Assembly: GCF_005843985.1 (NCBI RefSeq)
Contig: NZ_CP040463.1
Location: 1,290,001-1,354,000 of the forward strand
From: Caminibacter mediatlanticus TB-2
GTDB taxonomy: Bacteria > Campylobacterota > Campylobacteria > Campylobacterales > Nautiliaceae
DNA: 64,000 bases
Direction: 5' to 3'
Shown: piece after piece, positions 21,177 to 42,943 of the stretch
Position numbering within the stretch: position 1 is the stretch's first letter
How the letters are laid out: each line of letters starts with the position of its first letter
Notes under the pieces: generated by a model
Told to the model about the DNA's origin: nothing
Databases searched by the model: none
What the model saw: only the letters and a program-made list of their open reading frames with translations
Made by a program: the position numbers and the translations under genes

Positions 21177-21942
21177 ATAAAAATATACTTACTATATTGG
21201 TTGAAGTTAACTGAAAGACTTAAAAAAGAATTAAATATTTCGTTTCCAAACACTATGTACATTGATTAAAGATAAAGGAAATTTATTATACAAGGAGTTA
21301 AAATGAAAATAAAATTAAAAATAAATTTAAAAAAAGTGCTTGTATTGATTAAAGTGATTATTAAATACTAAACAGATAGAGAAGAACCAATTTACAAACA
21401 CTACGTGTTTCGGTTGAATCAATCTATTTGGGAAGATTTTGATAATCCATTTAAGTTTCAATACACTACATGTTTCGGTTGAATGAGTTTGCTAATAGTG
21501 TTAATTTAGGAGAAATCGTAAGTTTAAATACACTACGCGTATTGGTTAAAGATAGATAGATTAAAATTTATTTTAGAACATACTAAGTTTCCAAACACTA
21601 CGTGTATCGGTTAAAGGGAGCACAAAAAACATTGAATGATGCAATTGACAAGTTTCCAAACACTACGTGTATCGGTTAAAGATTCACTGCACTTTCCCTT
21701 GCACACTCGCTCCATCGTTTCCAAACACTACGTGTATCGGTTAAAGGGAGCACAAAAAACATTGAATGATGCAATTGACAAGTTTCCAAACACTACGTGT
21801 ATCGGTTAAAGAATATTTGCTTTACAAATAAATACAACAGGAAGTCGTTTCCAAACACTACGTGTATCGGTTAAAGATATGCCAACTACTGCATTAATAG
21901 AAACAAAAGATAGTTTCCAAACACTACGTGTATCGGTTAAAG
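21177..21942 (-). CRISPR. CRISPR array 1 (12 repeats, distal half decayed)
   Basis: Thirty-base repeats and 35-37-base spacers. On the transcribed (minus) strand the repeat begins CTTTAACCGATACAC and ends GTTTGGAAAC. Six exact copies start at 21587, 21652, 21717, 21782, 21847 and 21913. Leader-distal copies at 21522, 21455, 21390, 21325, 21242 and 21177 carry increasing numbers of changes, though the 65-base period mostly holds; one interval is 83. Spacers at 21617-21651 and 21747-21781 are identical. Copies at 21390 and 21455 have the alternative ATTCAACC end. The leader lies at the high-coordinate side, beside cas2. Confidence 0.95.
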
Positions 21943-22094
21943 GCATGAGATTTCGGGCTTTTTAAAAGGTTGGTGTCCTAATTTTAGGGATTTTCCAATC
22001 ATTTTTTAAAAAATAATAAATTTTCAAAAATCATTTTGCTTTTGCCATTATATCGAGGTTTAGAAAAAAAATCAAGAAAATGAGGTTGGAAAAA
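21943..22094 (-). promoter_or_regulatory. leader of CRISPR array 1
   Basis: About 150 bases nearly identical (reverse complement) to the leaders at 33675 and 41707. On the minus strand it has TTGATT (22075-22070), a 17-base spacer and TATAAT (22052-22047). It begins at the cas2 stop codon and ends GAAATCTCATGC against the first repeat. Confidence 0.88.
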
Positions 22095-23383
<1,289 letters not shown>

Positions 23384-23445
23384 TAATTACTCACTTATTT
23401 ATATAATTTTGCAAAGTGCATTTTTTGCATATTTCATAATGCTCC

Positions 23446-23928
23446 TTACAAAAAACAAAACTCATAATAAGCACATTTTTTACACTGATTTTCAAATTTA
23501 GGAGTTGGCATTTTTGAGTTTATAATTTTTTTAATATCGTTTATTATTTGAAGTAGTTTTTTTTCACTCTCATCATCTAAAATAACTTCTATTTTCTTTT
23601 TATTCTGTTTTCTCTTTTCAAAAACTTCAATTCTACCTTTTTTAATAATACCTTTTTGTTTTAAAACATAAAGATAATACAAAAGCTGCCATTTTGCAGC
23701 TTCTAAATCACTATCGCTTTTTTTAACTTCAACAACATAATCTTTTGTAATCTTATCTACCTTAATGCCCTCAAAACTAACCTCATCTACCTTTTCTTCA
23801 CTAATTTCGTGCAATACTTTTCCAATTCTTACATCTTCACTATTATCTTCAAGATTTATGCGATTTGCAAATAGCCACATTTGAGTTTTACAGTGAATAT
23901 AATAATTTATAAACGTCCCACTAATCAT
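23446..23928 (-). CDS. cas4: Cas4 exonuclease
   Basis: A 160-residue RecB-like nuclease with a [4Fe-4S] cluster: C13 near the N-terminus and C149, C152, C158 at the C-terminus (CKKCAYYEFC). The nuclease core has GIKVDKI followed by VVEVKKS, then QLLYYLYVLK. Cas4 trims prespacers and helps select PAM-bearing ends. It overlaps cas3 by four bases. Confidence 0.93.
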   Translation of the reverse strand: MISGTFINYYIHCKTQMWLFANRINLEDNSEDVRIGKVLHEISEEKVDEVSFEGIKVDKITKDYVVEVKKSDSDLEAAKWQLLYYLYVLKQKGIIKKGRIEVFEKRKQNKKKIEVILDDESEKKLLQIINDIKKIINSKMPTPKFENQCKKCAYYEFCFL

Positions 23929-26213
23929 AAAAAATCATACTCCCTATTTAGTTTTTTAAAAAACTTTTCTCTATTAAACTTAAACTCTTCATCAAAAAAT
24001 TCTTCATAATCTCTAATCAAATAAATTCCACAACACTCATCATTATATTCGTCAATTTTAAGATAAATTGGAATATTGTATGTAAAAAACTGCATTAAAT
24101 AGTTTATTTTGCTTTTTAAAACCTCTTTTTTTGCAAAATTTTCAATTGAATTTAGATTTTTAAACTCTTCCCAAACCCTCTCTCCACTTAAAATATTACC
24201 TTCTACAAAATCTAAAACCTCTATTTTATACTCTCTAACATCAATATCATAAGGAAAAAATAGAGTTTGATGTTTTGTATCAATCAATTTCATCTTTTTT
24301 TTAATTTCTTTGTATTTTAAAGATTTAATCTCTTCTAAAAACTCATTATATCTACTATAACTACCCACAAACTCTAAATTTTTATTTTTTAATTTTTCTA
24401 ATATAGCTAAATAATAAGCTTCAAAATCTTTGTTGATAAAATCTTTTTGCAAATTCTTATCTTTTAAACTAAATTCAATCCTTACATCCTTATACACTTT
24501 ATATGAACTATCTTTATCAAAAAAATAAGCTATTCCTTTTGACTTAGCATTTCTATTAATTCTTCCTAAAAACTGCTCTTCTGCTTCAATTATTGAGATA
24601 TCTTTTATCCCAACATCTAAATCAATATCAACACCCGCTTCAATAACTTGTGTAGCAACAATCACTATTTTTTTAGCTTCTTTGCTTCTTTTTATTACAT
24701 AATTTCTAATTAATTTATTATCATCTCCGCTAAGTTCGTATATTTCATAACCTTCTAAATTTTCTTTTAAAAAATTATAAAATTCTCTTGCACTTTTTTT
24801 TGTAATAAACTCAACTAAAATTCTTCTATTTTGTTTAATAATTTCTAAAATTTTATTTTCATCATTTTCATCTTCTAATAAATTAAAATCACACTCAACC
24901 CTATCCTTAAAAAGTGGATTTTTAAAATATTTCTCACTTTTAATTAAACTTTTCCAATTATTTTTAGATTCTAAAAAATAATCAATCTTAGGCAAAGTAG
25001 CAGACATAATAATAAATTTAACATTCAAAACTTCACTAAATACCTCAAAAAATTCAGCCATAAACCACCAAACATTCAAATTATAACTTTGTATCTCATC
25101 AATAATAACCACCGAATTATAAAGTTGCCACAGAGGAAAATTATCTTCTTTATTTATTCCAAACAAAATATCAAAAAAATTAATATGAGTTGTAATTATT
25201 AAAGGAGAATGATAAAAAAGCCTATTTAAATAAACCTTTGTATAAAGATTTTCATCATCTTCTTCAACATCCATAGGAGTAATTGAGTTTATTACACTAA
25301 AATTTCTCCTAAAAATAGTCTCAATTACATTTTTAGTTTGTTCGACTAATGTATTAAATGGAAAAACATAAAAAATCTTAGTAGGATTTAATTTAAGTGC
25401 TAAATTTATTGAAGTTATCGTTTTTCCAGCCCCTGTTGGTGCGTGTAAATAATAAATATTTGAATTATCAATACTATTTTCTGCTTCTAAAAAAATCTCT
25501 TTTCTTAAAACATTTATACCACTAACACTTTTATTTTCTCTTATATTTTTAACTATTTCAAACTCTTCAAAATCTTTAAAAAAACTATCATCAATTTTCC
25601 CAAAATCTTCAATTTCTAAATTAGTCATATATTCAAGAGTAGCATAATAATCACTACTAATTAAAAGAGAAAATATAAACTTAATTGCTACAAATTTTTT
25701 TATATCCATATACTCTTTATCAATATTAAATTCTGCAAACTCACCTTCTAAATTTCTCTTTAATTTATCTACAAAATCACTAAATCCATCAAGTTTTGAG
25801 TGATGTTTTGAAATCAAAAAAGATAAAACTACTAAAAAAGTAAGCTTTTTATATGCTTCATCAATATCTTCTTCTCTTACAACTTCTTCAATAAATCTTT
25901 CATAAAAAAGCTTTGCACCTAAAAATGAGTGATTTGAATCTTTAATATCTAACTTCTCATACTCATCTCTAAACTCTTCATTTTTCATTTTTAAATATTG
26001 AAAAGCAGGATTACACTTTCCTTCATCGTGCAAAATAATAGCTTCTATTATTAAATTTTTTACAAACTCTCTATCTTTTATCTCAAAAACATTAGCTAAC
26101 TTATCTAAATCTATATTTTTAAATTCAATTATTCTATCTAAATACTTTTTTACTAAACTTTTATGCTCTTTAAGTTTTTCTGGGGATTTTGTGGGGTGGA
26201 TGTGGGAAAACAT
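23925..26213 (-). CDS. cas3: Cas3 HD nuclease-helicase
   Basis: A 762-residue type I effector nuclease. HD domain at the N-terminus: SHIHPTKS, H62-D63 in IILHDEGKCNPAFQ and NHSFLGAK. Helicase: Walker A LHAPTGAGKTITS near residue 258, Walker B VVIIDEIQSYN, MSATLPK, and the motif VI region EEQFLGRINRNAKSKG. It unwinds and degrades DNA recruited by the Cascade complex. Its start overlaps the stop of the SEC-C gene (TAATG). Confidence 0.97.
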   Translation of the reverse strand: MFSHIHPTKSPEKLKEHKSLVKKYLDRIIEFKNIDLDKLANVFEIKDREFVKNLIIEAIILHDEGKCNPAFQYLKMKNEEFRDEYEKLDIKDSNHSFLGAKLFYERFIEEVVREEDIDEAYKKLTFLVVLSFLISKHHSKLDGFSDFVDKLKRNLEGEFAEFNIDKEYMDIKKFVAIKFIFSLLISSDYYATLEYMTNLEIEDFGKIDDSFFKDFEEFEIVKNIRENKSVSGINVLRKEIFLEAENSIDNSNIYYLHAPTGAGKTITSINLALKLNPTKIFYVFPFNTLVEQTKNVIETIFRRNFSVINSITPMDVEEDDENLYTKVYLNRLFYHSPLIITTHINFFDILFGINKEDNFPLWQLYNSVVIIDEIQSYNLNVWWFMAEFFEVFSEVLNVKFIIMSATLPKIDYFLESKNNWKSLIKSEKYFKNPLFKDRVECDFNLLEDENDENKILEIIKQNRRILVEFITKKSAREFYNFLKENLEGYEIYELSGDDNKLIRNYVIKRSKEAKKIVIVATQVIEAGVDIDLDVGIKDISIIEAEEQFLGRINRNAKSKGIAYFFDKDSSYKVYKDVRIEFSLKDKNLQKDFINKDFEAYYLAILEKLKNKNLEFVGSYSRYNEFLEEIKSLKYKEIKKKMKLIDTKHQTLFFPYDIDVREYKIEVLDFVEGNILSGERVWEEFKNLNSIENFAKKEVLKSKINYLMQFFTYNIPIYLKIDEYNDECCGIYLIRDYEEFFDEEFKFNREKFFKKLNREYDFL

Positions 26214-28549
26214 TATTTACCACAACATTTTTTATATTTCTTTCCACTCCCACAAGGACAAAGCTCATTTCTACCAATTTTTCTTTTAACTTTTAAAGTT
26301 TGTTTTAACCGGTATTCTTTTAAACCTTCAAATTTATTTTCTATTATTTTATTAGGTTTATTATCAAAATAAAATTGTTCAAAATGTATAAAATTATTCT
26401 CAAGTATAATCACAAACCAATTATTTATTTTTCGCTCATATGCATATAATTCACATTGTTTTTTTAATAGATCGTAATTATAAATTCGTTTACTAACAAA
26501 AACTACACCTATACGGGCTTTGTCAATATGTGGATAAAAATCTGTTCTTTGAGATTTTAAAATTAATTCAATTTGTTCTTTAATTAAGTTCTGAGAATAA
26601 CAATCCAAGCTCAATAAAAATTTAGTTAGTATTGAAAAATTTTCTTTGTTTAACTCTTCTATTTGTTTAACTAAAAATTTTATATTATTTTTACAACCTT
26701 TAAAAAAAGTTGGTTTTTCAACTTTTTTATCTAATTTTCCCTCTTTCCAAAAATAATATAGGTCTATATCCTTTGAAAAACTACTATCAATAATAAGCTC
26801 AAATCCATTTTTAGGAAACTCTATATCATCAAAGTATAATCCTTCATTTAAAAAATAACCAAAAATATCTATCTCTTCAGCCATTTTAACTTGAGGGTAA
26901 TCGTTATACTTAATTCTTCTTTCAACATAAACCAAAAATTCACTTGGTAAATCAATTATTTCAGAAATAATTCTTAAATCATTTAAATAAACAGACCATA
27001 TCCATTCATCATTCTGAATAAAACCAAATTCTTTAAGAGAAGATAAGTTAGCAGTAATGTGATTTAGTGGCTCTAATGTTACATTTATCAAATATATATT
27101 ATTAATTTTTTCTCTTTTTAGTTTCAATACCGTTTTTTTACTTTTATCTCTAAATTCCACTTCTTCGTCTGACAAAATATATTTTTTTGCTCTTATTGTT
27201 TGATTATATGCTTCTTCAACAAGTTTTTTCATATTACTTTTTATTTTTTCTACATTTCCTTTTTTTGCACCTTTAGAAAATTTACCACTTTTAGCTTCAA
27301 CAATAAATATATTATTATCATATATAATTATCCCATCAACCTCATCATCAACACCATATTTTAGACTTTTATATACTTCGCAGTTAGGTAGTATTTTTTG
27401 AAATAACTCTAAAGATTTATCTTCTAAATATTCTCCTTTTTTCTTATAATAATTTTTTTGATGCTTTTTAGGTGGAATAATACTAATTATAATATTTTCA
27501 AGGATTGTATGTAGATTATAAATTATCAATGCAGGATTGAAACAATAATATTCACTATCTATTTTAATAAGTGGTTTATCATATATTAATGTATCATTTG
27601 TGGGAAAATATTCAATTTCTTCTTCTTTGTAAATTTTATTATCCCCAATCTCCATACTCAAAGCATCTAAAATTTCTTTTGGCAAAGATATTTTATGAAT
27701 TTTAAATATAGAGTCATTAAAAGACACACCGGTTTTATCATAAATGTTTTGTAATTTTTCATTAACTTTTTTTATATTTTCTGAGTCTTTATATGTTTGC
27801 ATAAATTCAATTTTTTCTTCATCATATGATATTTTCTCTAAATTTTTTATAAATTCTTGATAGGATAACATTATTTCATCAAAATATTGTTTTTGAATCT
27901 TCAAATTTTTTATAGGATATTCTGAAATATTTATTAGTTCATCAATTAGTTGTTTTGAATCTATACCATATCTATCTGTTAATATATCATCAAATTTAGA
28001 AAACAGTTCCCGACACATTTCTATTTTGTGTTCAGGATACGAATCCCCTCTTACAATCATATTATGAATAATTTGCTTAAATTTTATTTGACTTGGCTCT
28101 CCTTTATAATCAGAAGTCAATATTAGATATAATGCAGCATTATTTTTTAGATCCTCTATATTTTTATCTATTCGATTTAATATTTCTTCACTACACTCTT
28201 TTTGATTCAAATTTCCTACTGCAGAAACAAGACTATGAATATAGTCTAATTTAAAATTTTTTTCACTATCTAAATCTTCTTCAATTTTGTCAGGAGTAGT
28301 TAAACCATAAAATGCACCAAAATAATCTAAAATTTGTTTTGCATCACAACTTTGAATATCTTTTATTAATAAATTTATAATTTCTTTAATTTTAGATTCA
28401 AGTTCAGGTATATTTTCTTTTAACTGTTCTTGCAATTTCATTTGCTCTACTTCTCCTATTTCGGAAGTATTCATACTTCTCATTTTGCTTGTTATTCTTT
28501 CTATATACTCTTTGAATGGATCTTCTTTTTTTGGTAATTTTATTATCAT
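26213..28549 (-). CDS. SEC-C motif protein with PD-(D/E)XK nuclease-like domain inside the cas operon
   Basis: A 778-residue protein not part of the usual type I-B set. Residues 1-350 are mostly helical with no recognised domain. Residues about 372-440 carry a restriction-endonuclease-like core: GEYLEDK, then D405 in EVDGIIIYD and E418-x-K420 in FIVEAKSGKFSKG. A beta-rich region follows, and the protein ends with a SEC-C zinc motif, GRNELCPCGSGKKYKKCCGK. It sits between cas5 (12-base gap) and cas3 (one-base overlap), on the same strand, so it is made with Cascade. A nucleic-acid cleaving accessory or a stand-alone defence protein are both possible. Function unknown. Confidence 0.85.
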   Translation of the reverse strand: MIIKLPKKEDPFKEYIERITSKMRSMNTSEIGEVEQMKLQEQLKENIPELESKIKEIINLLIKDIQSCDAKQILDYFGAFYGLTTPDKIEEDLDSEKNFKLDYIHSLVSAVGNLNQKECSEEILNRIDKNIEDLKNNAALYLILTSDYKGEPSQIKFKQIIHNMIVRGDSYPEHKIEMCRELFSKFDDILTDRYGIDSKQLIDELINISEYPIKNLKIQKQYFDEIMLSYQEFIKNLEKISYDEEKIEFMQTYKDSENIKKVNEKLQNIYDKTGVSFNDSIFKIHKISLPKEILDALSMEIGDNKIYKEEEIEYFPTNDTLIYDKPLIKIDSEYYCFNPALIIYNLHTILENIIISIIPPKKHQKNYYKKKGEYLEDKSLELFQKILPNCEVYKSLKYGVDDEVDGIIIYDNNIFIVEAKSGKFSKGAKKGNVEKIKSNMKKLVEEAYNQTIRAKKYILSDEEVEFRDKSKKTVLKLKREKINNIYLINVTLEPLNHITANLSSLKEFGFIQNDEWIWSVYLNDLRIISEIIDLPSEFLVYVERRIKYNDYPQVKMAEEIDIFGYFLNEGLYFDDIEFPKNGFELIIDSSFSKDIDLYYFWKEGKLDKKVEKPTFFKGCKNNIKFLVKQIEELNKENFSILTKFLLSLDCYSQNLIKEQIELILKSQRTDFYPHIDKARIGVVFVSKRIYNYDLLKKQCELYAYERKINNWFVIILENNFIHFEQFYFDNKPNKIIENKFEGLKEYRLKQTLKVKRKIGRNELCPCGSGKKYKKCCGK

Positions 28550-28561
28550 TGTTTATTCCTT

Positions 28562-29262
28562 TCATCCATACCAAACTCCTTTCTCATCATATTCCCACAT
28601 CTCATCACTATCAATTATACCACTGCTTAATACCATTTTATCCATCTCATACATTAAAAACTTCTTTTTCATCCCAATAGGCAAATACTCTTCATAAAAA
28701 TATACTCTTCCAAACATAGGTTGTTTTAATGATTTGATTTTGCTTTTAGGAATTAATGATTTGCAAACCATAGGTTTTGTAGCTTTTTTAAGTTCAATTT
28801 CTTTAATATCGCTAATGTTTGCAAAATGGTCATTCTTCCCAAGATATGGAATATAAACACACTCTTTATTAAAAAGTTTTTCTCTTAATTTATTAAATTC
28901 ATCACTTCCATTATCTAAAACTAAAATCTCCCAAGATGGATTTTCAAGCCATTGTTCTTTAACGACTAAATTTCCACCTTGTTCTTTACTTGCGTATCCT
29001 ACTGAGTTGTTAAAAGTTATTATTTTTTTTGAAAACATAACTTCTTTTGGAATAATTGATACTTTTATATGTTTTAGTCTTTTATAAAATTCTGGATAAT
29101 CTTTAATATCTTTATTATATCCATCAAGTCCTAAAATTGCCCCAAAAATACCAAGAAGTGCAATTTTATGAATATGAGAATATGTAAAATAGACATTACT
29201 ATTAACATCTGGCTTTTTAAAATGTGCAAATTTACCGCTTAAATTAAAACTTATTGCTTTCA

Positions 29263-29263
<1 letters not shown>
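28562..29263 (-). CDS. cas5: Cas5, type I-B (Csh-type)
   Basis: A 233-residue RAMP protein that caps the crRNA 5' handle in Cascade. The N-terminus AISFNLSGKFAHFKKPDVNSNVYFTYSHIHKIALLGIFGAILGLDG is typical of Cas5h. It overlaps the cas7 stop by one base. Confidence 0.93.
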
Positions 29264-30144
<881 letters not shown>

Positions 30145-31323
30145 TTAACTCCTTATTTTTAAAATGAATCTATTAAAAGGACTTTCATTAACACATATGA
30201 AACATTTATCTTCTTCTATAACATCTAAAAAAATACTAAAACTTGGATGATTATATTTATTATATTTTCCAGCATTTGCAATCCAAAAATAACAATTTTT
30301 TATATCTTGTAATAAATTTTTATTCCAATTTGATTTTGCTCCATGATGAGGAATTTGAAATACACATACTTCTTTTAAATAATTTTTATAATGATTTTTA
30401 AATTCTTTATAGTTTTTGTTAGCTTTAAGGTTTATATCTCCTGTTAAAATTTGTGCAAAACTCTTATTTTCTAACATAAGTTTTTTACCATATGGCACAA
30501 AACATGTCCGATAACAAATTTTATATTTATAAGGAAAATAATTATAAAAAATTTCATAATTATCTATTTTAACTAATGGTTTATGTAACATTACAAGAGA
30601 AGTGTCATTAAAATTACCTTTAATTTTTTTATAACATTGTTTTAAATATTCAACTGTTTTTTTATCAGAAAGATCTACTTTCTTAATATCAAGTTTTTTA
30701 TCTAATATACAATCTTTAAACTCTTTTAAATCTTTTTTTAAACAAAAAAATCTAAACATCCAATATTTAATTTTAATATCTCCCTTATCTGATTTATGAT
30801 TACCCTCTAAACTTTCTTCATTATTTACATTGCCCAAATTTATTTGAAGTTCAAAATTATCATTATCTTCAACATTAGGTATATCATCCTCTCCATTATG
30901 ATTAGAAGGATGAATATAGTATATGTTATTTTTATTTATACCATATTCAATTAAAAAATTAGTAGGATCTTGTAAAAACTCTAAGTACCAATGATTATTT
31001 TTTGCAAAAGATAAATTTTTAGTTAATATATATAATCTTTCAATTTCTGTAAAATATGGTAAGAAAACATACTTAGGTTTATTTTTTTTAAGCAAATATT
31101 CTAAGCCATTAATATGGTCCTTATGAAAATGTGAAATTACTAACATATCAGTGTTTTTTTCATTTAAGTAATTTAAATAATCGTCAATTACACATTTTAT
31201 ATATTCTTCACTTCCACCACAATCATAGATAAAACTAAATTTATTATTTTTATACTTGATAAGTCCACTATAAAATAATCCTTGTCCAACATTATGAAAG
31301 ACAAATTTACCAAGTAAACTCAT
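30145..31323 (-). CDS. MBL-fold metallohydrolase (ComEC-like catalytic domain) inside the cas operon
   Basis: A 392-residue soluble protein, not a known type I-B component. The metal-binding signature SHFHKDHINGLEYLL gives H65, H67, D69 and H70; later LTGDINLK and IPHHGAKSNWN match the ComEC-type metallo-beta-lactamase arrangement, and NHPSF follows near the end. No membrane segment or signal. Its start overlaps the cas8b stop by four bases and its stop is three bases from the cas7 start, so it is translated within the Cascade genes. Likely a nuclease or phosphodiesterase; substrate unknown. Confidence 0.88.
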   Translation of the reverse strand: MSLLGKFVFHNVGQGLFYSGLIKYKNNKFSFIYDCGGSEEYIKCVIDDYLNYLNEKNTDMLVISHFHKDHINGLEYLLKKNKPKYVFLPYFTEIERLYILTKNLSFAKNNHWYLEFLQDPTNFLIEYGINKNNIYYIHPSNHNGEDDIPNVEDNDNFELQINLGNVNNEESLEGNHKSDKGDIKIKYWMFRFFCLKKDLKEFKDCILDKKLDIKKVDLSDKKTVEYLKQCYKKIKGNFNDTSLVMLHKPLVKIDNYEIFYNYFPYKYKICYRTCFVPYGKKLMLENKSFAQILTGDINLKANKNYKEFKNHYKNYLKEVCVFQIPHHGAKSNWNKNLLQDIKNCYFWIANAGKYNKYNHPSFSIFLDVIEEDKCFICVNESPFNRFILKIRS

Positions 31324-32936
31324 TTTTCATCCTTTTTATAGAATATATTATCAGCTAAAATTCCAACTAACAGCTTATCTCTTTTAACCCTATCACATTC
31401 AAAGCTTTCAACTAATGCAAGTGCATTATTAAACTTCCTGTAATTTAAAGGAATCTCGTGTTTATAGTTAAAAAACAAGCTCTCTATTTCTTCTTTTAGT
31501 TTTTTAACTTTCCCTGCTCTTAAAAATGGCTCAATCATATCAGCTCTTTTTTCACTTTTTTTACTTTTATCAAGCAAATATTTAATTATTTGCCCAGCTA
31601 AAATAAAAAACTCATCTTCATTTAACTCTTCTAAATTTTCAATTTTTTCTTCAATATTTTTTAAACTATTTTTAATATCCATCCTCTCTCCTTCATATTC
31701 TAAAATTGATAATTTTAAATTCAAAGATTGTTGTGCTTTTTTTAATCTATTTTCTTTTAAATGCCACAAAATAAAATCATCAGCATATTTTTTATTAACC
31801 TTAAAAAGTGGTTTTATCTCACCTTTTTTTAGAGCTTTCATAGCATCACGAGTAAGATAAAAAAGAGTTTGTACTTTATGAGGTAATTTATTCCACACAT
31901 CTGAATATAACGATAAAGTTTTGTTATAAAAAATTTCATTTATTTTTTCATATAAAAGACTATATCTCTCTATCTTTTCATCTTCCCCATCTTTTGATAA
32001 AAAATCTTTGTATATAAACTCAGGATAAATTCTATCTTCACTCACAACAATATCAAAATCAACAATTTCAGCCACATCATTATTATTTTCTTTATAAACA
32101 TAAATCCCGCTTTTATTATTTTTAGCTTCTTTATTAAAATCTCTAACATACTTTAAAAAATCAAAAAGTTTTTTATGTAAAATTATTTCATCTTTTTCAA
32201 CTAAAAAAGGCAATTCAAACCCTCTTGTTTTATGAGCTAAAAATGGCTTTTTTGCATTTAATCCAACATTAAAATCACTAAGTCCATAAATTTTATTATC
32301 TATTTTATATGTATATTCGATTTTGTTATAAATTTTTAAAGCATAATAAATTTTTGCTTCATTTTCATACTTTTTAATATCTTCATCAAAAAATATTTTA
32401 ATATACTCATTTTCTTTAATTAGTTCTTTTTTATTTTTAATTTCTTCAAAGACTTTTAAAAATCTGTTTTTTTTAATTTCTACATCTTTTTGTCTTTTTT
32501 CATCAAAAATATAATCTTTAAAATCTTCTAAAACTTCTTTTTCTTTTTTCTTATTAAAACTTTTAAAATCTATTAAATTTTCATAAAGTTTTTCAATAAA
32601 ATAATCTTTATTTTCATCATTAAATTCTTTTGCTTTACAAAATAAAGTAAGGTAATTATTATTATGAATTCTCTTTTTAGGAGGGTCAATTGATTTATTT
32701 GAATTTAAATAATTGCTTATATAATCTCTTTTACAAAACCACTCATACATTTGAGAAGCTATATTATCTTCTAAATCAGTTAAACACATCTTTTTATCAC
32801 AATCTTTTTTAAATTTATACTTATAAAATTCTATATTATCGCCAATTTTCACATATAGCCCATCTTTAAGTTTATAGTTATCAATTATTGCTTTATCTAA
32901 ATCAAAATCAATCTTTTCTAAAATATCTCTAATCAT
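31320..32936 (-). CDS. cas8b: Cas8b large subunit, type I-B (Csh1)
   Basis: A 538-residue large Cascade subunit when started at ATG 32936, which has GGAG six bases upstream; a TTG at 32954 is possible. It has the Csh1-like pattern of a lysine/aspartate-rich body and a helical C-terminal part (ENRLKKAQQSLNLKLSILEYEGERMD ... EDEFFILAGQIIKYLLDKSKK). It recognises the PAM in type I-B. It overlaps the end of cas6. Confidence 0.85.
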   Translation of the reverse strand: MIRDILEKIDFDLDKAIIDNYKLKDGLYVKIGDNIEFYKYKFKKDCDKKMCLTDLEDNIASQMYEWFCKRDYISNYLNSNKSIDPPKKRIHNNNYLTLFCKAKEFNDENKDYFIEKLYENLIDFKSFNKKKEKEVLEDFKDYIFDEKRQKDVEIKKNRFLKVFEEIKNKKELIKENEYIKIFFDEDIKKYENEAKIYYALKIYNKIEYTYKIDNKIYGLSDFNVGLNAKKPFLAHKTRGFELPFLVEKDEIILHKKLFDFLKYVRDFNKEAKNNKSGIYVYKENNNDVAEIVDFDIVVSEDRIYPEFIYKDFLSKDGEDEKIERYSLLYEKINEIFYNKTLSLYSDVWNKLPHKVQTLFYLTRDAMKALKKGEIKPLFKVNKKYADDFILWHLKENRLKKAQQSLNLKLSILEYEGERMDIKNSLKNIEEKIENLEELNEDEFFILAGQIIKYLLDKSKKSEKRADMIEPFLRAGKVKKLKEEIESLFFNYKHEIPLNYRKFNNALALVESFECDRVKRDKLLVGILADNIFYKKDEK

Positions 32937-33633
32937 CCTCATCTCCAAAATCAACTGATTTTATTTCTTTTAAAAATCCTCCCCCAATTAAAGCATTTTT
33001 CTCTCCAAGTCCATATCCAAATCCAACAAAAGAAAGTTTCTTAGCAATCTCGTTATCTTTAATACTTGCAATTATTTTATTTCCAAAAAAATCTTTATCT
33101 TTATATCTTACTTTAAATGGCTTTTTATTTTTAAATTTTAAATATCCAATAAAATCAGCCTTTGTAACATTTTCACCGGATATAAAGTTATATTTTTTTA
33201 TCAAATTATTAGTTAATCTATCAATAAACAATAAAATATCTCCGCTCTCTTTATATGTCCAAAAGCGATTATTTTTAAGAGTTACAAACACTGGATTTAA
33301 AGTAATAAAATTTTTATATTCTCTAAATTTTACTTCTCTAAATTTAATACCCTCAACTCTTAAAAACTTATCTTCCCACATAATACTACTAACAAGCAAA
33401 TCAATATATTTTTTATCAAAACTTCTAAAAATAAAATTAGTTTTACCCTCATAATATCCGTCTTTTGGATTATTAAAATTTGAAAAAACATACTTAAATT
33501 TATTTTCAAGATGTGAAGTGTCACCTTTACTCATAAAATATGAAGCTAAAAATTTCGATATCACTTCAAGTGAAGACTTATGATAAATTCTATGCTTTAA
33601 TTCAACATCAATTTTTAATTCAAAATATCTCAT
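32929..33633 (-). CDS. cas6: Cas6 crRNA endonuclease
   Basis: A 234-residue RAMP endoribonuclease that cuts repeat RNA. The C-terminal glycine-rich loop FVGFGYGLGEKNALIGGGF is the family hallmark; the N-terminal ferredoxin fold begins MRYFELKIDVELKHRIYHKS, with a histidine suited to catalysis. It is the first gene of the type I-B operon and the only cas6 in the window, so it should also process RNA for the type III operon. Confidence 0.92.
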   Translation of the reverse strand: MRYFELKIDVELKHRIYHKSSLEVISKFLASYFMSKGDTSHLENKFKYVFSNFNNPKDGYYEGKTNFIFRSFDKKYIDLLVSSIMWEDKFLRVEGIKFREVKFREYKNFITLNPVFVTLKNNRFWTYKESGDILLFIDRLTNNLIKKYNFISGENVTKADFIGYLKFKNKKPFKVRYKDKDFFGNKIIASIKDNEIAKKLSFVGFGYGLGEKNALIGGGFLKEIKSVDFGDEDD

Positions 33634-33825: not shown

Positions 33826-34513
33826 ATTCAACCGATACACGCAGTGTTTGGAAACCATAAAACAATATAATTAACTTGATTAGTAAAATGATTCAACCGA
33901 TACACGTAGTGTTTGGAAACATCATAGCAATTGATGCTAACTCTTTTTCAGTGTTTATTCAACCGATACACGTAGTGTTTGGAAACTAAATATTAGGCAT
34001 TTCTATTCCTTTTTTATAAAAATTCAACCGATACACGTAGTGTTTGGAAACTTTAAAGTTGCCATATTAGCTCCTCTTAGCCTTCGTATTCAACCGATAC
34101 ACGTAGTGTTTGGAAACTTATACCCTTATTGTACAAATGTTAAAAAATATGTTATTCAACCGATACACGTAGTGTTTGGAAACTCGTAATTTAATATATT
34201 TTTTGTTAAATTATTTCTTATTCAACCGATACACGTAGTGTTTGGAAACTTATCTAGTTTAGGTTCTAGGTAATCGAATAACGCATATTCAACCGATACA
34301 CGTAGTGTTTGGAAACTTTTTATCATCTTTAAATAAAGAATAATTTAAAATAAATTCAACCGATACACGTAGTGTTTGGAAACTAGATTGTATGGATGGT
34401 AATGTTAAGAAAAAGTCATTCAACCGATACACGTAGTGTTTGGAAACAGCATTTAATCTACTGCCTTTTTGTAATCTTAATTTCTTCAAGCAATACACAT
34501 TGTGTTTGTAAAA
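33826..34513 (+). CRISPR. CRISPR array 2 (11 repeats, 10 spacers)
   Basis: Repeats begin ATTCAACCGATACACG and end GTTTGGAAAC. Starts: 33826, 33891, 33957, 34022, 34088, 34154, 34220, 34287, 34354, 34418 and a degenerate last copy at 34484. The first, newest repeat has CGCAG where the others have CGTAG. Spacers are 34-37 bases. The 130 bases after it (34514-34643) are A+T-rich and hold no gene I can see. Confidence 0.96.
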
Positions 34514-34643: not shown

Positions 34644-35360
34644 TCACTCTAAAAGCTTACTTCCAGTAGTAATATAATATTCTGCATTTTTTATTATTTT
34701 TTGCCCTTGTGTAAAATCAAATTCTGGTAATATTTCTAATTCTCCTTCAAATTTTTGATTATTAAATTTTAAATAGTTTTTAAGTGGATTTTTATAATTA
34801 TTGGTTTGATAAATTCCTTTTATAAGGTTGCAGTTATAATTTTTCTCTTTAATACTTTCCAATTTCATCAATCCAAATCCATATCTTACATCACCACCAA
34901 TATATATCTTTTTTATTTCATCTAAATACTCTTTTTTGCAGTTTATATATCCAACCCACTCTCCAACCCACTCTATATTATTTGGATATATTAAATCTAT
35001 CTCATGTAAACTTTCATCTTTTGCATTAAGAGAGGTTGGATTAATTGCAGTAGATGTAAAGCTTTTTACATATTTTTGTCTAAACTCACTTTCACTCATG
35101 TCGCCAAGATAAAGTTCCCCATTTTTATAACTTGGATATAATACTTTTCCATCTATTTTTGGATAAAAACACGATATTTCTTCGAATATATGCTCACTAT
35201 GTTTACCTGTTATTTTAAAATACTCATTTGTCAAAGCACCCCACATTGTAATACCTGGAATAAAAATGCGAGTCTCATTTACAACACCCCAACCACCTTG
35301 CCCAATATTAATTGGCTCAATTTGTTTAAAAGTTAGCTCAAACCATTTATTATCACTCAT
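34644..35360 (-). CDS. Cas5-group RAMP protein of the type III operon (Cmr3/Csx10-like)
   Basis: A 238-residue protein if started at ATG 35360 (a GTG six bases earlier is possible). It has the Cas5-type N-terminus FELTFKQIEPINIGQGGWGV, a loop with FIPGITMWGALTNEYFK resembling the P-G-S-x-hhGAL pattern, and a C-terminal glycine-rich stretch IGGDVRYGFGLMKL. In type III complexes this subunit holds the crRNA 5' end next to Cas10. It overlaps the cmr5 end by eight bases and is the last gene of the operon. Confidence 0.72.
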   Translation of the reverse strand: MSDNKWFELTFKQIEPINIGQGGWGVVNETRIFIPGITMWGALTNEYFKITGKHSEHIFEEISCFYPKIDGKVLYPSYKNGELYLGDMSESEFRQKYVKSFTSTAINPTSLNAKDESLHEIDLIYPNNIEWVGEWVGYINCKKEYLDEIKKIYIGGDVRYGFGLMKLESIKEKNYNCNLIKGIYQTNNYKNPLKNYLKFNNQKFEGELEILPEFDFTQGQKIIKNAEYYITTGSKLLE

Positions 35361-35715
35361 TTTCACTCACTTTTAATGCTTTTGCGTGGTATCTTGCATA
35401 AATTAAAGCTTTTTCAAGAATCTCTTTAAAAAATAGAAGTTGATGTATATCGTTTGAGAGATTTCTAAAAAACTCTTCATCATCTGCATTTTCAATATTT
35501 ACAAATTCTTTTAGTTTTTCTATTTTCTTAATAAAAATATCATCAATTTTATTTGCTTTACAATAAACCCAATAAACATACACTCCATCATTAGCTAATA
35601 CACCAAGAGATTTATCTATATAGTTTTTATACTTTGTTCGTTCTTTATCTTTGTTCTTAATTGATTCAACTATTTCAAACCCAACTTCATTAATAATTGC
35701 ATCAAGATTCTTCAT
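35353..35715 (-). CDS. cmr5: Cmr5-like small subunit (Cas11 group)
   Basis: A 120-residue all-helical protein (LDAIINEVGFEIVESIKNKDKERTKYKNYIDKSLGVLANDGVYVYWVYCKA ... ALIYARYHAKAL). Pattern, size and position match Cmr5, which lines the inner face of the type III-B/C complex. ATG 35715 has GGAG upstream. Confidence 0.82.
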   Translation of the reverse strand: MKNLDAIINEVGFEIVESIKNKDKERTKYKNYIDKSLGVLANDGVYVYWVYCKANKIDDIFIKKIEKLKEFVNIENADDEEFFRNLSNDIHQLLFFKEILEKALIYARYHAKALKVSENE

Positions 35716-35724: not shown

Positions 35725-36708
35725 CTATTTTAAATCAATTTTTAACCTACCAAATCCTCTTGTTGTCATTCCACCAATTCCAAGAGTTTCATAGTAGTGT
35801 TTTGTATCATCAAGAGCATTAAATACTAAATTTAGATCTGGTAAGTCATTATCTACTCTTTTGAATCCTCTAATTTCACCTTTAAATATAGTTCCCCTTG
35901 GAATAGCCTCACTTGTAAATAAAGCACCCTCTTTTGCAGCACCAGTAATAGGGTCTATTGAAACAGAGGTTCTAACTTCTAAATTTGAATTAATTATTTG
36001 AGAAATTAAACTATCTGGAACAATTACAATATCTTCTTTTTTGAAATCTAAATTATTTAAATCTAAATCTTTTTTTATAGGTCCCCTAACTTCTAAATTA
36101 AGCCATCCAAGATTTAAATAACCTTCACTCCCATTAGCAGTTAAGATTGTATTGTCTTCAATTTCAAAATTTTCATTAAGTAGTTTTGGTGATGTAATCC
36201 ATTTCGTTCCAAGTCTTGTATATACTGGAAAATATAATATGTTTAAATCACTAAAAAATAGCATTCCTTGATTTGAAATATCTTTTTTAGCAAACCCAAA
36301 ACCTTTACAAACTATACATCTCCCACAATGTCCAGTATTACTCATTTTTGAATCTTCAAAAGTTTTATTAGCTTGATCATCTTGCCCTGCACACTTTATT
36401 CTTGCATATCTATTGCCATCAAACTCTTTCATCCAATCTTTTGGATTCTCAAATAAATCTTCTAAACTTTTATCTTTTCTTTTTTGTAAATCTTTTTTAT
36501 ATTCATCTTTAAATTTACTTTGTAACTCCATAGCTACATAATATCTCCATGTCCCAGCCAAACTGCTTCCTGGAATTTTTGGAATATATGTTATAGGGTC
36601 TCTTACAATTGTATTATCAACTCTACCAATTGTATATCCACCAGTGCCAATATATATTGGGTCCGTTGCTATTGCACAAATCACTTTTTCAACTACATTA
36701 TTATTCAT
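35725..36708 (-). CDS. cmr4: Cmr4-like Cas7 backbone RNase
   Basis: A 327-residue RAMP backbone protein. The N-terminus DPIYIGTGGYTIGRVDNTIVRDP carries the aspartate that cleaves target RNA in Cmr4/Csm3. KIPGSSLAGTWRYYV and QGMLFFSDLNILYFPVYTRLGTKWITSP are typical Cmr4 segments. A four-cysteine/histidine patch (HCGRCIVCKG) may bind zinc. AAAGGAGAT precedes the start, inside the end of the cas10 frame. Confidence 0.88.
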   Translation of the reverse strand: MNNNVVEKVICAIATDPIYIGTGGYTIGRVDNTIVRDPITYIPKIPGSSLAGTWRYYVAMELQSKFKDEYKKDLQKRKDKSLEDLFENPKDWMKEFDGNRYARIKCAGQDDQANKTFEDSKMSNTGHCGRCIVCKGFGFAKKDISNQGMLFFSDLNILYFPVYTRLGTKWITSPKLLNENFEIEDNTILTANGSEGYLNLGWLNLEVRGPIKKDLDLNNLDFKKEDIVIVPDSLISQIINSNLEVRTSVSIDPITGAAKEGALFTSEAIPRGTIFKGEIRGFKRVDNDLPDLNLVFNALDDTKHYYETLGIGGMTTRGFGRLKIDLK

Positions 36709-36709
36709 T

Positions 36710-39700
36710 TTATATCTCCTTTAAAGTTGTATGATAATAATCAAACATATCTAAAAATTTTTTCATTTCATTAAAGCCATAATCTTTAATACCAAATTGT
36801 TGTATATCAATTTCATTTTGCTTAAAAGTGCTTTTCATAAACATTTTAAAACTTTCTTCATTATCTTTCCAATCTTGGATTTTTGAATATATTAAACTAA
36901 CAAGTCTGTGCATTAAAGCTGTTTTATTTTTAAAAAACTCTTTAAAATTTTCAAAATATTCAAACTCTTCCCAAGTATATGGTCTATTAGATTTTAAATG
37001 TAAATTTATTTTATCTTGGTTATCATATGATTCTAAAAATAACTTTCTTTTTCCTTTCACATAATAAATATCATTTTTTCTTGAATTACTATCTAAAAAT
37101 TCAAAATCAATTGTATTTGGATATATTATAAATTCATCACTTTGATTATATTTTTTTACCCCTTTTTTACTTGGCAAATTATAAAAAGGATAATCATTAT
37201 TTTCGCACTCATAAAGCCAATAATAATCTTTCGCATTATTGTTTTGTTCTACAATTTCTTCATAACACTCTAAATTTGGAAGTAAATTTCTACCCTCCAC
37301 TTTAATATCTTCCCAAATTTTAATATCTCGTCTTATTTTTCTTAATGCTTTAATCCCAATATATAATGGAAATTTAGAGTTTTGAACAACAATACCTATA
37401 TGTAGAGGTAATTTTCCATATACATATTTAAACTCTTTTTTATATAAATGCTGAATTTTTTTTATAGCATCATTAACTTTATTTGTTGGTAAAATAAATT
37501 GCCAAGAGATAGGAGTAGGGTCAATTATGGATAAATATTGTTTATATTCATCTTCTTTAATTTTATCTTTTAAATGTTCAAAATCAGGTATCTTTTTTGC
37601 AAAACCTTCTTTTGTTCTATAACCTTTGTAACTATCTAAAATTTCACTCTTAACTCTATTAAAAAACTCATAAGTAGTATCCCAAATTCTTCTTAATCAT
37701 GCAGGTGATGGATTTTTTCTTAATATAAATTGTAAAAGTATTTTTGATAATACTTCAATATCATTCTCAGTTAAATTATTCCAATATATTTTCCTATTTT
37801 CAAAATTTATTTTTTGTTTTTTAGGTTCATTATTTTGAATATCCCAATCATTTAATTGTTTATAAATAAATTCTTCCCACTTTTGACCAATAGAACGTTC
37901 TAATAAAGTGTTATAAACTTGGTACATAAAATAATTAAGGATAAAAATTTTATACAAATGAGTTTTTACCCCATCGTCTTCTATATATTCATTTAGCTTA
38001 ACTTTTTTGCCCTTTTTTTTGTTTTTAATAATTTCGTTAGTTGCAGAGTTATAAAAAGAATAGTATTCCTTAATCCAATTAGGAGCCAATAAATTCTTAG
38101 TTAAATCTCGCCAACCTCTTTCGTTAGATACATTATTTAAGTTTTTATGTTCTTTTAATACATTTTTCATGGTTTTAAATGGCTCATAAATACCACTTCT
38201 ATCATAAAGTTCAAAAAATTTTTCAAATGTCTTTTCATCATTATCAGTGATATTTAGTGATTTTACATCTTGACTTTTTAGGTTTTTAATTAATATATTG
38301 AAGGCTGACATTATTTCATTTTTATATTCTTCAAAGCTTTCATTTCGAACCAACAAACTATTCAACAAATCCCCATTTAACCATTCACTAAGCTCAAACT
38401 TTAATGTAACTAATGCAACTCTGTTATTATCATCTGCGAGTTCATCTATCCAAATTGTTTCATCTTTTTGATTTTTTAACCACTTATCTAATCTTCCTTT
38501 TGTTTTATTTTCATAACAAAATCCACATATATTTTTATCTTCATCTTTTTTATCAATGTTATAAACTATTCTTGTTTTACAAACTTGACAAACCCCAATA
38601 GGATATTTATTCTCATCAAATTCCAGGCATAAATTTTTATTTTTTAAACTAAAATCTTGTTTTAAAAAATTCTCTTTTGCTTGTTCTAAAAGTGTTGTTA
38701 AATTCATTAAACCTCTTGATGATTTACTTAATACAAAACTTGGATAAAATTCATCATCAGTTTTATTTTTAAAAATTTTTAAAATCTCTTTTTTTAGCTT
38801 ATTAGATAATTCAAAATCTTCAACAACTATAAAATATACTCCTGTTTCATCTTTGTATATCTCATTTCCAATAGGATATTTTATTTCTAATAAATCTTGT
38901 ATTTCTTTATCTATTTCTCTTGAAATATCTCTATACCACATTATTTGTGATGGTTTATATCCTTTTTCAGCTAAACCTAATTTATCATATTGAATACCAA
39001 GTATTCTCCATTTTATACTTGAAGGATTATTTTGATAACTACTTAACTTAGAGTTATCAATAACAAGTTGCGATAAAACAGCTTTAAACATAGAAGCTGT
39101 CATATATGCTTGGTCAAAAAGAGATACATCATTAACAGGAAATCTATTATCACTCAAAAGATGTGAATACCACTTTTTTATTTCTTTTAAAATAAAATTT
39201 CTGATTTCTTGCCAATTTGGGTTTTGATAATAATTATTATCTTGCAAGAAAAAATTTAGTTTACAAAAAAAATTATTTCTTGCATCATCAAAATATGTTT
39301 CGTCTATTTCTTCCTTATAACTTCCAAAAGCATTAGAAAGCCAAAGTTTATATTTTAATTGTTCTTTTGGTGAGCCTTTATCTATTCCAGAGTTTATATT
39401 TTCACATCCTCTAAAAAATACTTTTTGTATAAAATTCTCATTAGAAGCATCACCTTTAAAAAATTCTATCCAATCTATTTTTTTACTATCACTAATTTTT
39501 ACTTGTTTATTAATAATAAAATCTTTTAAATCTTGAGAGATACTTTCTAATTCATTTTCAAATATATTATTTTGATAGTAATTTTTATAACTACTAAATT
39601 GACTTTGAAAATTATTAAAATAGTCTTTCCAATTACCTATTCCTATATGAGTTTTTCCCAAATTAAAGAGTAAAGCTCCTATTTCTGCTTTTAAAATTTC

Positions 39701-39742
39701 ATCTCTATATTGTTTTAATTTTTCTAAATCTAATCTTGACAT
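36710..39742 (-). pseudogene. cas10-like gene (Csx11 type) interrupted by one in-frame TGA
   Basis: Two open stretches, 37697-39742 and 36710-37300, lie in exactly the same frame and the 396 bases between them are also open. The only interruption is TGA at 37697-37699, so the full product would be 1010 residues with the stop after residue 681. Around it the frame reads NPSPA-stop-LRRIWDTTYEF; a CGA arginine codon would restore a smooth sequence. A zinc-finger pair (CQVCKTR and CGFC) lies near residue 390. There is no GGDD cyclase motif and the N-terminal HD position reads LFNLGKTH, so both Cas10 catalytic centres look lost, as described for Csx11/type III-C. The start is placed at ATG 39742, seven bases after AAGGA. 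Confidence 0.8.
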
Positions 39743-40656
39743 TTTTTCCATCCTTCTGGAATTTGAAATTCACTGTTTAAACAAACCTTTTTATCTTCAT
39801 CCAAAATATCAAACCTTCCCCAACCAAGTTTTGTTTTAGCTCCAAGGCCATTTTGAGATAATTTTTCAATACATTTAGTTAAAAACTCTAAATCTTTTTT
39901 TGCTTCTTTTTGAATTTTTTTATCATCTTCTAAAATTGCATCAAAAGGAATATAGATAATTTGTAAAGTGCTTTTGCAACCTTTTGGCACTACTTCATAA
40001 TATATTGGATTTGTTCCTGCTTTTGTTTTTCTATTGTGTGGGTTTATTACTTCAAGAGATAATTTATCAAAATATATTGGATAAAATATAGCTCTTCCTT
40101 TTTGAGCTTTTGATTGTTTATATCTCTCAAAAGCTTCTTTTAAACTTTCATTAGGATTTATTCCAATCTCAAAAGCTAAAAATAGTTGCAGTTGATTTAT
40201 GTCAATTCCTTCTTTTTTGAAAATAGCTCTAAATGTATCATTGCCAACACCAAAAATTCTAAAAAAGCTTTTTAAATTTTCTATATTAACCTCTTCTTTT
40301 AAAATCTCTATTGCATTGTGTAACAGTGCACCTTTTATACTACTACCTCTAATCATAGGAACTTTGAAAGCTTTATCTTTTAACATAGGATTTGAAATAA
40401 TATAGAATTCATCATCATCTTTTGAATATAGAGGTGCTGTAAGTTTTAAAGTTACTTCAATACCAAAAGAATTTGGAATTGATTTTTGGATTAAATTTTC
40501 TATATCTATTTTTAGATGTTCAATATATCTCAAATTACCAAATCTATACTCTTTTGGCAATTGTTTTAAAATATTTAATTTATTATTTAATCCATATTTT
40601 AATTTAGAAAAAGAATCATTGTTGTAATTTAGACAATATTCATAATTTTGATTCAT
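39730..40656 (-). CDS. Cmr6-like Cas7-group RAMP protein
   Basis: A 308-residue RAMP protein with KVPMIRGSSIKGALLHNAIEIL, GRAIFYPIYFDKLSLEVINPHNRKTKAGTNPIYYEVVPKG and the C-terminal glycine-rich GLGAKTKLGWGRFD. The GRAIFYP...INPH pattern and position between cmr1 and cas10 fit a Cmr6-type terminal backbone subunit. ATG follows GGAG inside the end of cmr1; its end overlaps cas10 by 13 bases. Confidence 0.75.
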   Translation of the reverse strand: MNQNYEYCLNYNNDSFSKLKYGLNNKLNILKQLPKEYRFGNLRYIEHLKIDIENLIQKSIPNSFGIEVTLKLTAPLYSKDDDEFYIISNPMLKDKAFKVPMIRGSSIKGALLHNAIEILKEEVNIENLKSFFRIFGVGNDTFRAIFKKEGIDINQLQLFLAFEIGINPNESLKEAFERYKQSKAQKGRAIFYPIYFDKLSLEVINPHNRKTKAGTNPIYYEVVPKGCKSTLQIIYIPFDAILEDDKKIQKEAKKDLEFLTKCIEKLSQNGLGAKTKLGWGRFDILDEDKKVCLNSEFQIPEGWKKCQD

Positions 40657-41663
40657 TTTTTAGCTCCAATATTTTGAATTCCCCAAATTGATAAAAATTG
40701 CCCATTATAAATTTTAGTTGATTTATTAAAAGAGATTAAAGGAATTATCTTTGTAGCATTCGGACCTTTTATTTCAAGGTTATACCTTTTATTTTTATAT
40801 ATATCTTTTGCTATAGAACCAAATTTATAATGCCTAATAAACTTATTACTTTCAAATCTTCTTAATTTGACTTTTTTTGAGAGTAAATTTTTTATACAAT
40901 CATTCAAATTATTACACTTTTTAATATTAAATACTTCTATTGCTTTATAATTTAATCTATTTAATTCATCTGGTAAATCTTTTTCTTGGAAAATTGAGTT
41001 AGTTATTTTATTATTAACACCTATACAATTTAAATCTATTTCATTATTTTCAATAGTAGGTTCAATTATTTTAACTCTGCCATATCCTATGTTATTCTTT
41101 GCTCCTATAAAACCATATCTTTCAATAAATTTTAATAATGGCAATAATATATTTTCTCCAACTTCATTTAATACATTAAAAGTAATACGAAATTTTCCAA
41201 AAAAACCCTTTTTAAAATACCAAGATGGGATTATAGTTTTGTTTTGCTTGTTATATTCTAATTTCTCTAAACTAATTTTTCCAAGTGGATAGATATATTC
41301 ATATTCATCTATCTTTATTACTTTTTTAATCTCTATTCTACTCTTCCAACCAGTGCAGCCAAAAATTTTAGAAGTTGTAGTAAGAGGTAAATTTTTTATA
41401 ATGTACTCTTCTATATCTGATATTTCTTTATCTTTATATTTATATTTTTCAAAAGTTTTGTTTCGAATTTTTTCAAAAGTTTTATAATCTAAACTTTCAT
41501 TCTCTTTTACTTCAATACCTGCAAAATAGCAATATACTTCAAACCAAAATCTTAAACTTCCAAATATTGAAGCTGGTTTAAGCTCTGTACATTCTCCATT
41601 TATATCACCTGTCCATAAAGGTGTAACTGTTTCAAATGTAACTGTTAATTCTTTTTTACCCAT
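40653..41663 (-). CDS. cmr1: Cmr1-like Cas7-group RAMP protein
   Basis: A 336-residue protein starting MGKKELTVTFETVTPLWTGDINGE, then PASIFGSLRFWFEVYCYFAG, SKIFGCTGWKSRIEI and IERYGFIGAKNNIGYGRVKI, all typical of Cmr1, which caps the 3' end of the crRNA complex. First gene of the type III operon. ATG 41663 follows AAGGAT. It is divergent from leader 3. Confidence 0.88.
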   Translation of the reverse strand: MGKKELTVTFETVTPLWTGDINGECTELKPASIFGSLRFWFEVYCYFAGIEVKENESLDYKTFEKIRNKTFEKYKYKDKEISDIEEYIIKNLPLTTTSKIFGCTGWKSRIEIKKVIKIDEYEYIYPLGKISLEKLEYNKQNKTIIPSWYFKKGFFGKFRITFNVLNEVGENILLPLLKFIERYGFIGAKNNIGYGRVKIIEPTIENNEIDLNCIGVNNKITNSIFQEKDLPDELNRLNYKAIEVFNIKKCNNLNDCIKNLLSKKVKLRRFESNKFIRHYKFGSIAKDIYKNKRYNLEIKGPNATKIIPLISFNKSTKIYNGQFLSIWGIQNIGAKK

Positions 41664-41859: not shown

Positions 41860-42943
41860 CTTTAACCGATACACGTAGTGTTTGGAAACAATAATCAATA
41901 ATATCTTTATAAAAAAATTTAAGAACTTTAACCGATACACGTAGTGTTTGGAAACGCAGTAGCTACAGCATTACCCAGTATGTCAGCATCCTTTAACCGA
42001 TACACGTAGTGTTTGGAAACACTTCTTTGCTGTTGGAGAGATACTTTCTTTCTTCACTTTAACCGATACACGTAGTGTTTGGAAACAATTATCTACTAAA
42101 CTTACTAAAAAGAGTCTGTTTTCTTTAACCGATACACGTAGTGTTTGGAAACTTTAAAAACTTATTTGCTTCTATGCACTCTTTTAATCTTTAACCGATA
42201 CACGTAGTGTTTGGAAACTTTCATATAAACGTTTATAATCTATATTATAAACATTAAACTTTAACCGATACACGTAGTGTTTGGAAACTTGCTGTTGCAG
42301 GAAAGTTTATTATCTTTTTTTCCCAACTTTAACCGATACACGTAGTGTTTGGAAACGAATATAGCTTATATTGATTCGTTGTACCTATTGTCTTTAACCG
42401 ATACACGTAGTGTTTGGAAACGTGTTATTTGATGGTATAGGTTTAAATAAAGAAATCCTTTAACCGATACACGTAGTGTTTGGAAACTTATCATAATTAT
42501 CTATAATTTCTCTTTTATTTAACTTTAACCGATACACGTAGTGTTTGGAAACGTGGAAGCATAAGGTAAAAGGAATAGGTCATTAGCATTCAACCGATAC
42601 ACGCAGTGTTTGGAAACGCAATATAATTATCTGCAAACAATAAAACACTTAGATTCAACCGATACACGCAGTGTTTGGAAACAGCTGATAAAGAAGCAAG
42701 AAAAAAAGAGATTGACATTCAACCGATACACGCAGTGTTTGGAAACCCTAATGGACTTTGATACACATTTATTGGTTGCAGCATTCAACAGATACACGCA
42801 GTGTTTGGAAACAGAAAAGGTAACATTTTCTTGATAGGTGTCTTATCTATTCAACCGATACACGCAGTGTTTGGAAACGTAACTTTTGCATAATAATTTG
42901 CGGTTGTTTGAATATTCAACCGATACACGTAGTGTTTGATTTT
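41860..42943 (+). CRISPR. CRISPR array 3 (17 repeats, 16 spacers), two repeat variants
   Basis: Repeats 1-11 (starts 41860, 41926, 41991, 42057, 42123, 42189, 42259, 42327, 42392, 42458, 42523) begin CTTTAACC and contain CGTAG. Repeats 12-16 (42588, 42653, 42717, 42783, 42849) begin ATTCAACC and contain CGCAG. The last, at 42914, is truncated after GTGTTTGA. One spacer is 40 bases, the others 34-38. Transcribed on the plus strand from the leader. The following 42944-43118 is A+T-rich with no gene seen. Confidence 0.97.

Follow-up and report, generated by a model that had tools for sequence, protein, structure and literature searches.

A probable recent nonsense mutation in csx11, the Cas10 large-subunit gene of a type III-C CRISPR operon in Caminibacter mediatlanticus TB-2

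We find that csx11, the large-subunit gene of a type III-C effector operon in Caminibacter mediatlanticus TB-2, is interrupted by one in-frame TGA at a position where related proteins have arginine, and we consider it probable (roughly three chances in four) that a recent single-base nonsense mutation inactivated the gene. Translation would end after residue 684, inside palm2, giving a product without the rest of palm2 and the C-terminal domain, and most of the downstream 328 codons would probably go untranslated. The truncated protein would be expected to fail to complete the III-C complex, so that III-C interference would be lost, and the type I-B and separate type III-A systems of the same genome may cover for it. 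The genome is one contig of 1,685,887 bases, and the window analyzed here is its 64,000-nucleotide stretch from base 1,290,001 to base 1,354,000.

Results

One stop codon interrupts an otherwise open frame

The csx11 frame (36710–39751, minus strand) is open except at a single TGA (37697–37699). An earlier note on this DNA, made from the sequence alone, had described one frame broken once between 36710 and 39742, and translation indeed shows no other stop there. An ATG at 39751, three codons upstream of 39742, is a possible start, and with it the TGA becomes codon 685 instead of 682. Chance does not explain the open frame downstream, since that part contains no stop, against a mean of 35 and a minimum of 20 in 500 mononucleotide-shuffled versions. 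The read-through protein (~122 kDa) matches the Csx11 profile TIGR02682 with 498.8 bits (cut-off 248.95), which bears out the earlier identification as a Csx11-like cas10; the first piece alone also exceeds the cut-off (342.5 bits), and the second piece alone falls below it (142.7 bits). Judged by this match, the product is the Cas10 large subunit of the type III-C operon. Only one full-length copy is present in the genome, the eight further DNA matches each spanning fewer than 70 bases. For 132 codons after the TGA there is no ATG, GTG or TTG, the first being the GTG at 37300.

The surrounding operon runs cmr1, cmr6, csx11, cmr4, cmr5, cmr3 on the minus strand, with CRISPR arrays on both flanks (Table 1). 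Its other genes had been reported as intact, and this holds: all five Cmr-type genes are open and give near-full-length profile matches, except that the cmr6 match lacks the first 55 residues. Because cmr4 has its own AAAGGAGA about 8 bases before its ATG, its translation need not depend on csx11.

Table 1 Features of the csx11 locus and neighboring CRISPR loci (window coordinates)
Feature	Coordinates	Strand	Description
Type I-B cas2, cas1, cas4, cas3, cas5, cas7, cas8b, cas6	22095..33633	-	Two extra genes among them
CRISPR array	33826..34447	.	10 repeats; repeat family common to other window arrays
cmr3-like gene	34644..35366	-	Open throughout; profile match
cmr5-like (Cas11) gene	35353..35715	-	Open throughout; profile match
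cmr4-like (Cas7) gene	35725..36708	-	Open throughout; AAAGGAGA ribosome-site-like sequence within the csx11 end
csx11/cas10, second piece	36710..37696	-	328 sense codons + TAA; putative rest of palm2 and C-terminal domain; first 132 codons without a canonical start
Frame from GTG 37300	36710..37300	-	First candidate restart; would yield the C-terminal domain alone (196 aa)
In-frame TGA	37697..37699	-	Arg codon in 78/78 relatives reaching the column
csx11/cas10, first piece	37697..39751	-	684 codons + TGA; putative degenerate HD region, palm1, zinc knuckle, first palm2 strand, insertion
cmr6-like gene	39730..40656	-	Open throughout; profile match without first 55 residues
cmr1-like gene, III-C operon	40653..41663	-	Open throughout; profile match
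CRISPR array	41860..42943	.	16–17 repeats

Relatives have arginine at the interrupted codon

To collect relatives, we used an alignment of four Csx11 proteins to scan one genome from each of 84,980 species; the scan returned 97 relatives, and the best 80 loci were kept. The resulting alignment has 93 rows including the window. It takes in frames of at least 60 codons from the best 80 of the 97 loci, fragments that three genomes of the order contributed, and a single copy on a cyanobacterial plasmid; three loci contained in other loci were dropped. Every row that reaches the TGA column has Arg there (78/78; 77 from the best 80 of the 97 loci plus the plasmid copy) and none has Cys or TGA, the remaining 14 rows being pieces that end before or start after this position and show a gap. 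The motif around the column reads K-N-P-S-P-A-R-L-R-R-I-W and is looser in distant members. A plasmid scan found two cyanobacterial records; a single-protein scan of a genome-contig collection and an alignment scan of viral contigs yielded no relative, and phmmer against PDB sequences returned nothing relevant.

Alignment with related Csx11 proteins thus agrees with the arginine proposed in the earlier note, and less so with its proposed path, a C-to-T change in CGA. The 78 codons at the column are CGC (21), AGG (18), AGA (17), CGT (15), CGG (4) and CGA (3), and the three relatives with CGA are all distant. In the tree, the sister group of the window consists of two Campylobacterota loci, L079 of Sulfurovum sp. 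FS08-3, whose III-C operon is intact, and L076, with AGA and AGG, respectively. AGA outnumbers CGA by 27 to 3 in csx11 itself and by 492 to 15 in the 51 other genes of the window. Given the sister codons and the AGA-heavy usage in csx11, AGA appears likelier than CGA as the ancestral codon; this is not proven, and CGA is possible.

Ahead of the NPSPAR motif, Csx11 carries a variable-length insertion (residues ~465–680; 37714–38359), which is ~100 residues shorter in L013 and L018 and nearly absent from the Anabaena plasmid copy (L019).

The stop is predicted to divide palm2

An AlphaFold2 model of the read-through protein, built with 45 aligned sequences from the window and related loci, has a mean pLDDT of 89.6. 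It matches Cas10, Csm1 and Cmr2 chains (VIA-align Z of 18.4 over 578 residues at 4.3 Å against a Csm1 chain), and its best Foldseek match is the large subunit of a type III-B Cmr complex (6s8e_K; E = 5.8e-8), with a query TM of only 0.35. In the model, residue 685 lies near the start of a helix (683–707) between a strand (444–452) and a hairpin strand (749–755). We interpret these two strands as palm2 elements, and the stop would accordingly divide palm2 as modeled. By comparison with Cmr structures, the missing C-terminal domain may also mean lost contact with Cmr5.

GGDD occurs in none of the 93 aligned rows, the window reading PISWQF where it would align. Nor does the window keep the HD motif (it has LLFNLGKTH), which is likewise absent from all 27 close relatives that cover the position and is found in 22 of 35 distant long rows. 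Taken together, the HD count in close rows (0/27) and the GGDD count (0/93) indicate that the broken subunit comes from a branch with neither catalytic signature. With its 498.8-bit match, Cmr1/3/4/5/6 relatives in the operon and absent GGDD, the protein resembles Csx11/Cas10c of type III-C (TIGR02682, PADLOC Cas10c), whereas it differs from Csx11/Cas10c generally in that the gene is TGA-interrupted and the HD motif is missing too, a lack it shares with all 27 close relatives that cover the position. An excerpt of PMC11229360 describes type III-C as lacking cyclase active sites and gives half as the share of III-C loci with a recognizable HD; the HD motif is thus variable in III-C and not decisive for membership. 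Arg is kept at the TGA column in every other Csx11 examined despite the loss of GGDD, which makes it a good target for structural work.

The downstream frame shows no clear decay

We compared the window with conserved alignment columns on either side of the TGA. Where 28 close relatives are at least 95% conserved, it departs at 3 of the 80 columns that precede the TGA and at 0 of the 39 that follow; with the threshold at 90%, the departures are 3 of 94 and 3 of 51; and when conservation of at least 95% is required across all 67 long relatives, they are 0 of 20 and 1 of 14. The window also shows the largest excess of N-part over C-part identity among 29 rows. On a fixed topology, its terminal branch is 0.312 for the N part and 0.376 for the C part, a scaled C/N ratio of 1.28 that ranks 17th of 25. 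This tree used 24 of the 28 close rows and left out L075, L089 and L091, which are incomplete or interrupted, and L097, whose omission was unnecessary. Set against a fragmentary relative from the family, unique changes are 14 versus 9 in the C part and 16 versus 36 in the N part (Fisher P = 0.02), a comparison in which the relative's two contigs may not be one gene. Some of these measures hint at faster change after the TGA, with signals that are small and mixed, and overall they suggest no clear decay of csx11 downstream of it. This pattern implies that the stop is young, or is not real, or that some product is still made. The very recent loss envisaged in the earlier note is consistent with the single stop, the 39 unviolated columns after it and the unremarkable branch ratio.

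Alternatives to a nonsense mutation

It is unlikely that the TGA is a sequencing or assembly error and that the organism's csx11 is intact. A single-base change with no second stop in frame and no clear sign of decay fits such an error, but the genome is a single contig scored 100% complete and 0% contaminated, and the change looks like a substitution and does not lie within a long homopolymer. We also scanned 464 kb, or 27.5% of the genome, made up of the window and 20 further 20-kb stretches, for same-register frames of at least 100 codons parted by one stop. In four of 39 such pairs, csx11 among them, the stop is followed by at least 20 start-free codons; the other three overlap long opposite-strand frames and look like shadows, which leaves no second real break of the scanned kind. 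The scan, which covers in-frame stops only, argues against a genome full of such errors and cannot clear one base.

Recoding or leaky readthrough of the UGA, by selenocysteine insertion or near-cognate decoding, could in principle give some full-length Csx11, and we regard this as very improbable. The genome does make selenoproteins, having selB (319.1 bits, over the cut-off), an adjoining tRNA-Sec with anticodon TCA and a pair of formate-dehydrogenase-type genes that each contain a single in-frame TGA (one gene scores above the family cut-off); csx11 resembles these genes in that its frame stays open and conserved after the TGA. In both formate-dehydrogenase-type genes, which served as positive controls, a 5-bp hairpin carrying a G-rich 5-nt loop follows the TGA at a distance of 13 nt. 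In contrast, csx11 has no SECIS-like hairpin after its TGA, where pairing is weak (−3.6 kcal/mol) and shuffled versions fold about as well as the 61-nt stretch itself (z = 0.24), and its relatives carry Arg, never Cys or TGA, at the column. Recoding is unlikely on both these grounds, and the earlier suggestion of readthrough finds no backing in them; selenocysteine at this TGA in particular, very unlikely from the sequence, was set aside for the same two reasons. A suppressor tRNA was rejected as well, TCA anticodons being confined to tRNA-Sec among the tRNAs that account for 42 of 43 Rfam tRNA matches (at the 43rd, of 59 nt and 29.4 bits, ARAGORN places no tRNA). Because UGA is the stop of 21 of the 51 window frames taken as genes, a global code reassignment is ruled out.

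That the two pieces are made separately and act together as a split Cas10, an idea raised in the earlier note with GTG 37300 as the second start, is the least tenable account, since the break falls inside palm2 and the first canonical start comes 132 codons on. The GTG would begin near the boundary between palm2 and the C-terminal domain, but residues 686–817, half of palm2, would then be in neither product, only a weak GGGAAG precedes the GTG, and Lys and Thr occupy the corresponding position in the sister sequences. Csx11 is interrupted in 8 of the best 80 of the 97 related loci, and in one of these, archaeal contig L096, two frames overlap by ~17 bases at an ATG; cmr6 is also broken in L096, so its apparent split may be a frameshift. 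A natural split in another locus, L094, was rejected: the interruption is an in-frame TAA, and the next 400 nt have no ATG, GTG or TTG.

csx11 is broken in several related loci

The eight broken loci (L089, L091, L094, L083, L087, L096, L103 and L119) hold 10 csx11 breaks, counted over the 235.6 kb of csx11 in all 80 loci, compared with three breaks in the 318 copies (296.5 kb) of cmr1/3/4/5/6 together. By length, the excess in csx11 has P = 0.018 when breaks are counted and P = 0.055 when broken loci are counted. The counts rely on profiles made from near-full-length copies and supersede an earlier count of 9 versus 1 obtained by single-sequence search. Shortened copies without a second fragment (csx11 in L127 and many cmr genes) were not counted as breaks; most cmr flags trace to profiles that exceed the proteins in length. 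Because the cmr genes are short, their fragments are shorter as well, and cmr breaks may be missed more often.

Three of the csx11 breaks are in-frame stops (TAA in L089, TAG in L091 and TAA in L094), and the others are overlapping frames, mostly frameshift-like. Seven of the eight broken loci are metagenome assemblies by their titles, and some of the breaks may stem from assembly errors. We treat recurrent csx11 breakage as a suggestive lead, not a result. One could speculate, at rather long odds, that loss of the large subunit is recurrent and tolerated or even favored in type III-C, with the Cmr RNase backbone and crRNA supply kept and a csx11 gene without HD and GGDD switched off by single mutations.

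In L087, one csx11 frame change coincides with a run of (AT)n (~8218–8243) that lies ~20 codons past the NPSPAR motif and may be a slippage site.

Discussion

Two other CRISPR systems in the cell most likely explain why the csx11 allele would be tolerated. Besides the type I-B genes in the window, a complete-looking type III-A locus spans the contig origin (~1,677,950 to the end plus 1–1,646). Its Cas10 lies in two pieces at the contig ends, the N part with LHDIGK and the C part with AGGDD, and the locus further encodes Csm2–5, CARF-RelE and CARF-PDDEXK effectors, a WYL protein and Cas6. Arrays with another type of repeat lie near it, as does a frame that looks Cas1-like by eye.

Type III-C is patchy in the order: Csx11 matches occur in 7 of 398 genomes, including this one and one marginal case, and in none of the six genomes of the same genus, two of which are less than 75% complete. 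One genome of the same family, G009, has a cmr4 relative on a contig that ends before any csx11.

As a mutation, a nonsense change in csx11 is ordinary, since nonsense cas10 mutations are already documented elsewhere. According to an excerpt of PMC3784566, they arise in Staphylococcus epidermidis when CRISPR immunity blocks a transferred plasmid. The allele described here resembles those mutants, as portrayed in that excerpt, in that single-base substitutions create stop codons within cas10; the S. epidermidis mutants came from laboratory selection in which a targeted plasmid was transferred, whereas here the gene is of type III-C and belongs to a deposited genome. A natural parallel, also from the excerpt, is csy2 of Escherichia coli UTI89, where one cas gene carries a stop in a natural genome and other strains are intact. 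There a spacer matches a resident plasmid, unlike in the present genome, where no near-exact self-target was found.

Of the 32 distinct spacers extracted from the arrays of the window and an array close by, that search matched 31 against the genome, omitting one A+T-rich spacer of the latter; the extraction covers all but a few spacers, those at degenerate repeats, and only arrays outside the III-A locus. Scoring 40 of 147 first-look candidates gave no near-exact self-target outside the arrays for these 31 spacers, the best matches there, both of them A+T-rich, reaching 88% over 32 nt and 83% over 41 nt. A self-targeting spacer as the cause of the mutation is accordingly not supported.

Our literature search returned no report of a stop-interrupted Csx11, a split type III Cas10 or a type III-C Cas10 pseudogene like this case. 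What the locus appears to offer is a natural nonsense allele of a III-C cas10 with the other subunit genes open, in a genome with a complete-looking III-A system and a I-B system. Such an allele could help to find out whether a large subunit lacking both catalytic motifs is required by a III-C complex.

Several further features of the neighboring loci were observed. Between cas5 and cas3 of the I-B operon lies a gene (26213–28549) whose 778-aa product gives a weak NERD nuclease-like match and bears a SEC-C motif at its C terminus, and between cas8b and cas7 lies a gene (30145–31323) for a metallo-beta-lactamase-fold protein with weak ComEC, Avs1a and RTasMBL matches. The array at 21231–21947 has degenerate repeats at its far end and contains one spacer twice (units at 21651 and 21781). 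A fourth array with the same repeat sits just outside the window (genome ~1,288,990–1,289,450) and has one duplicated spacer too.
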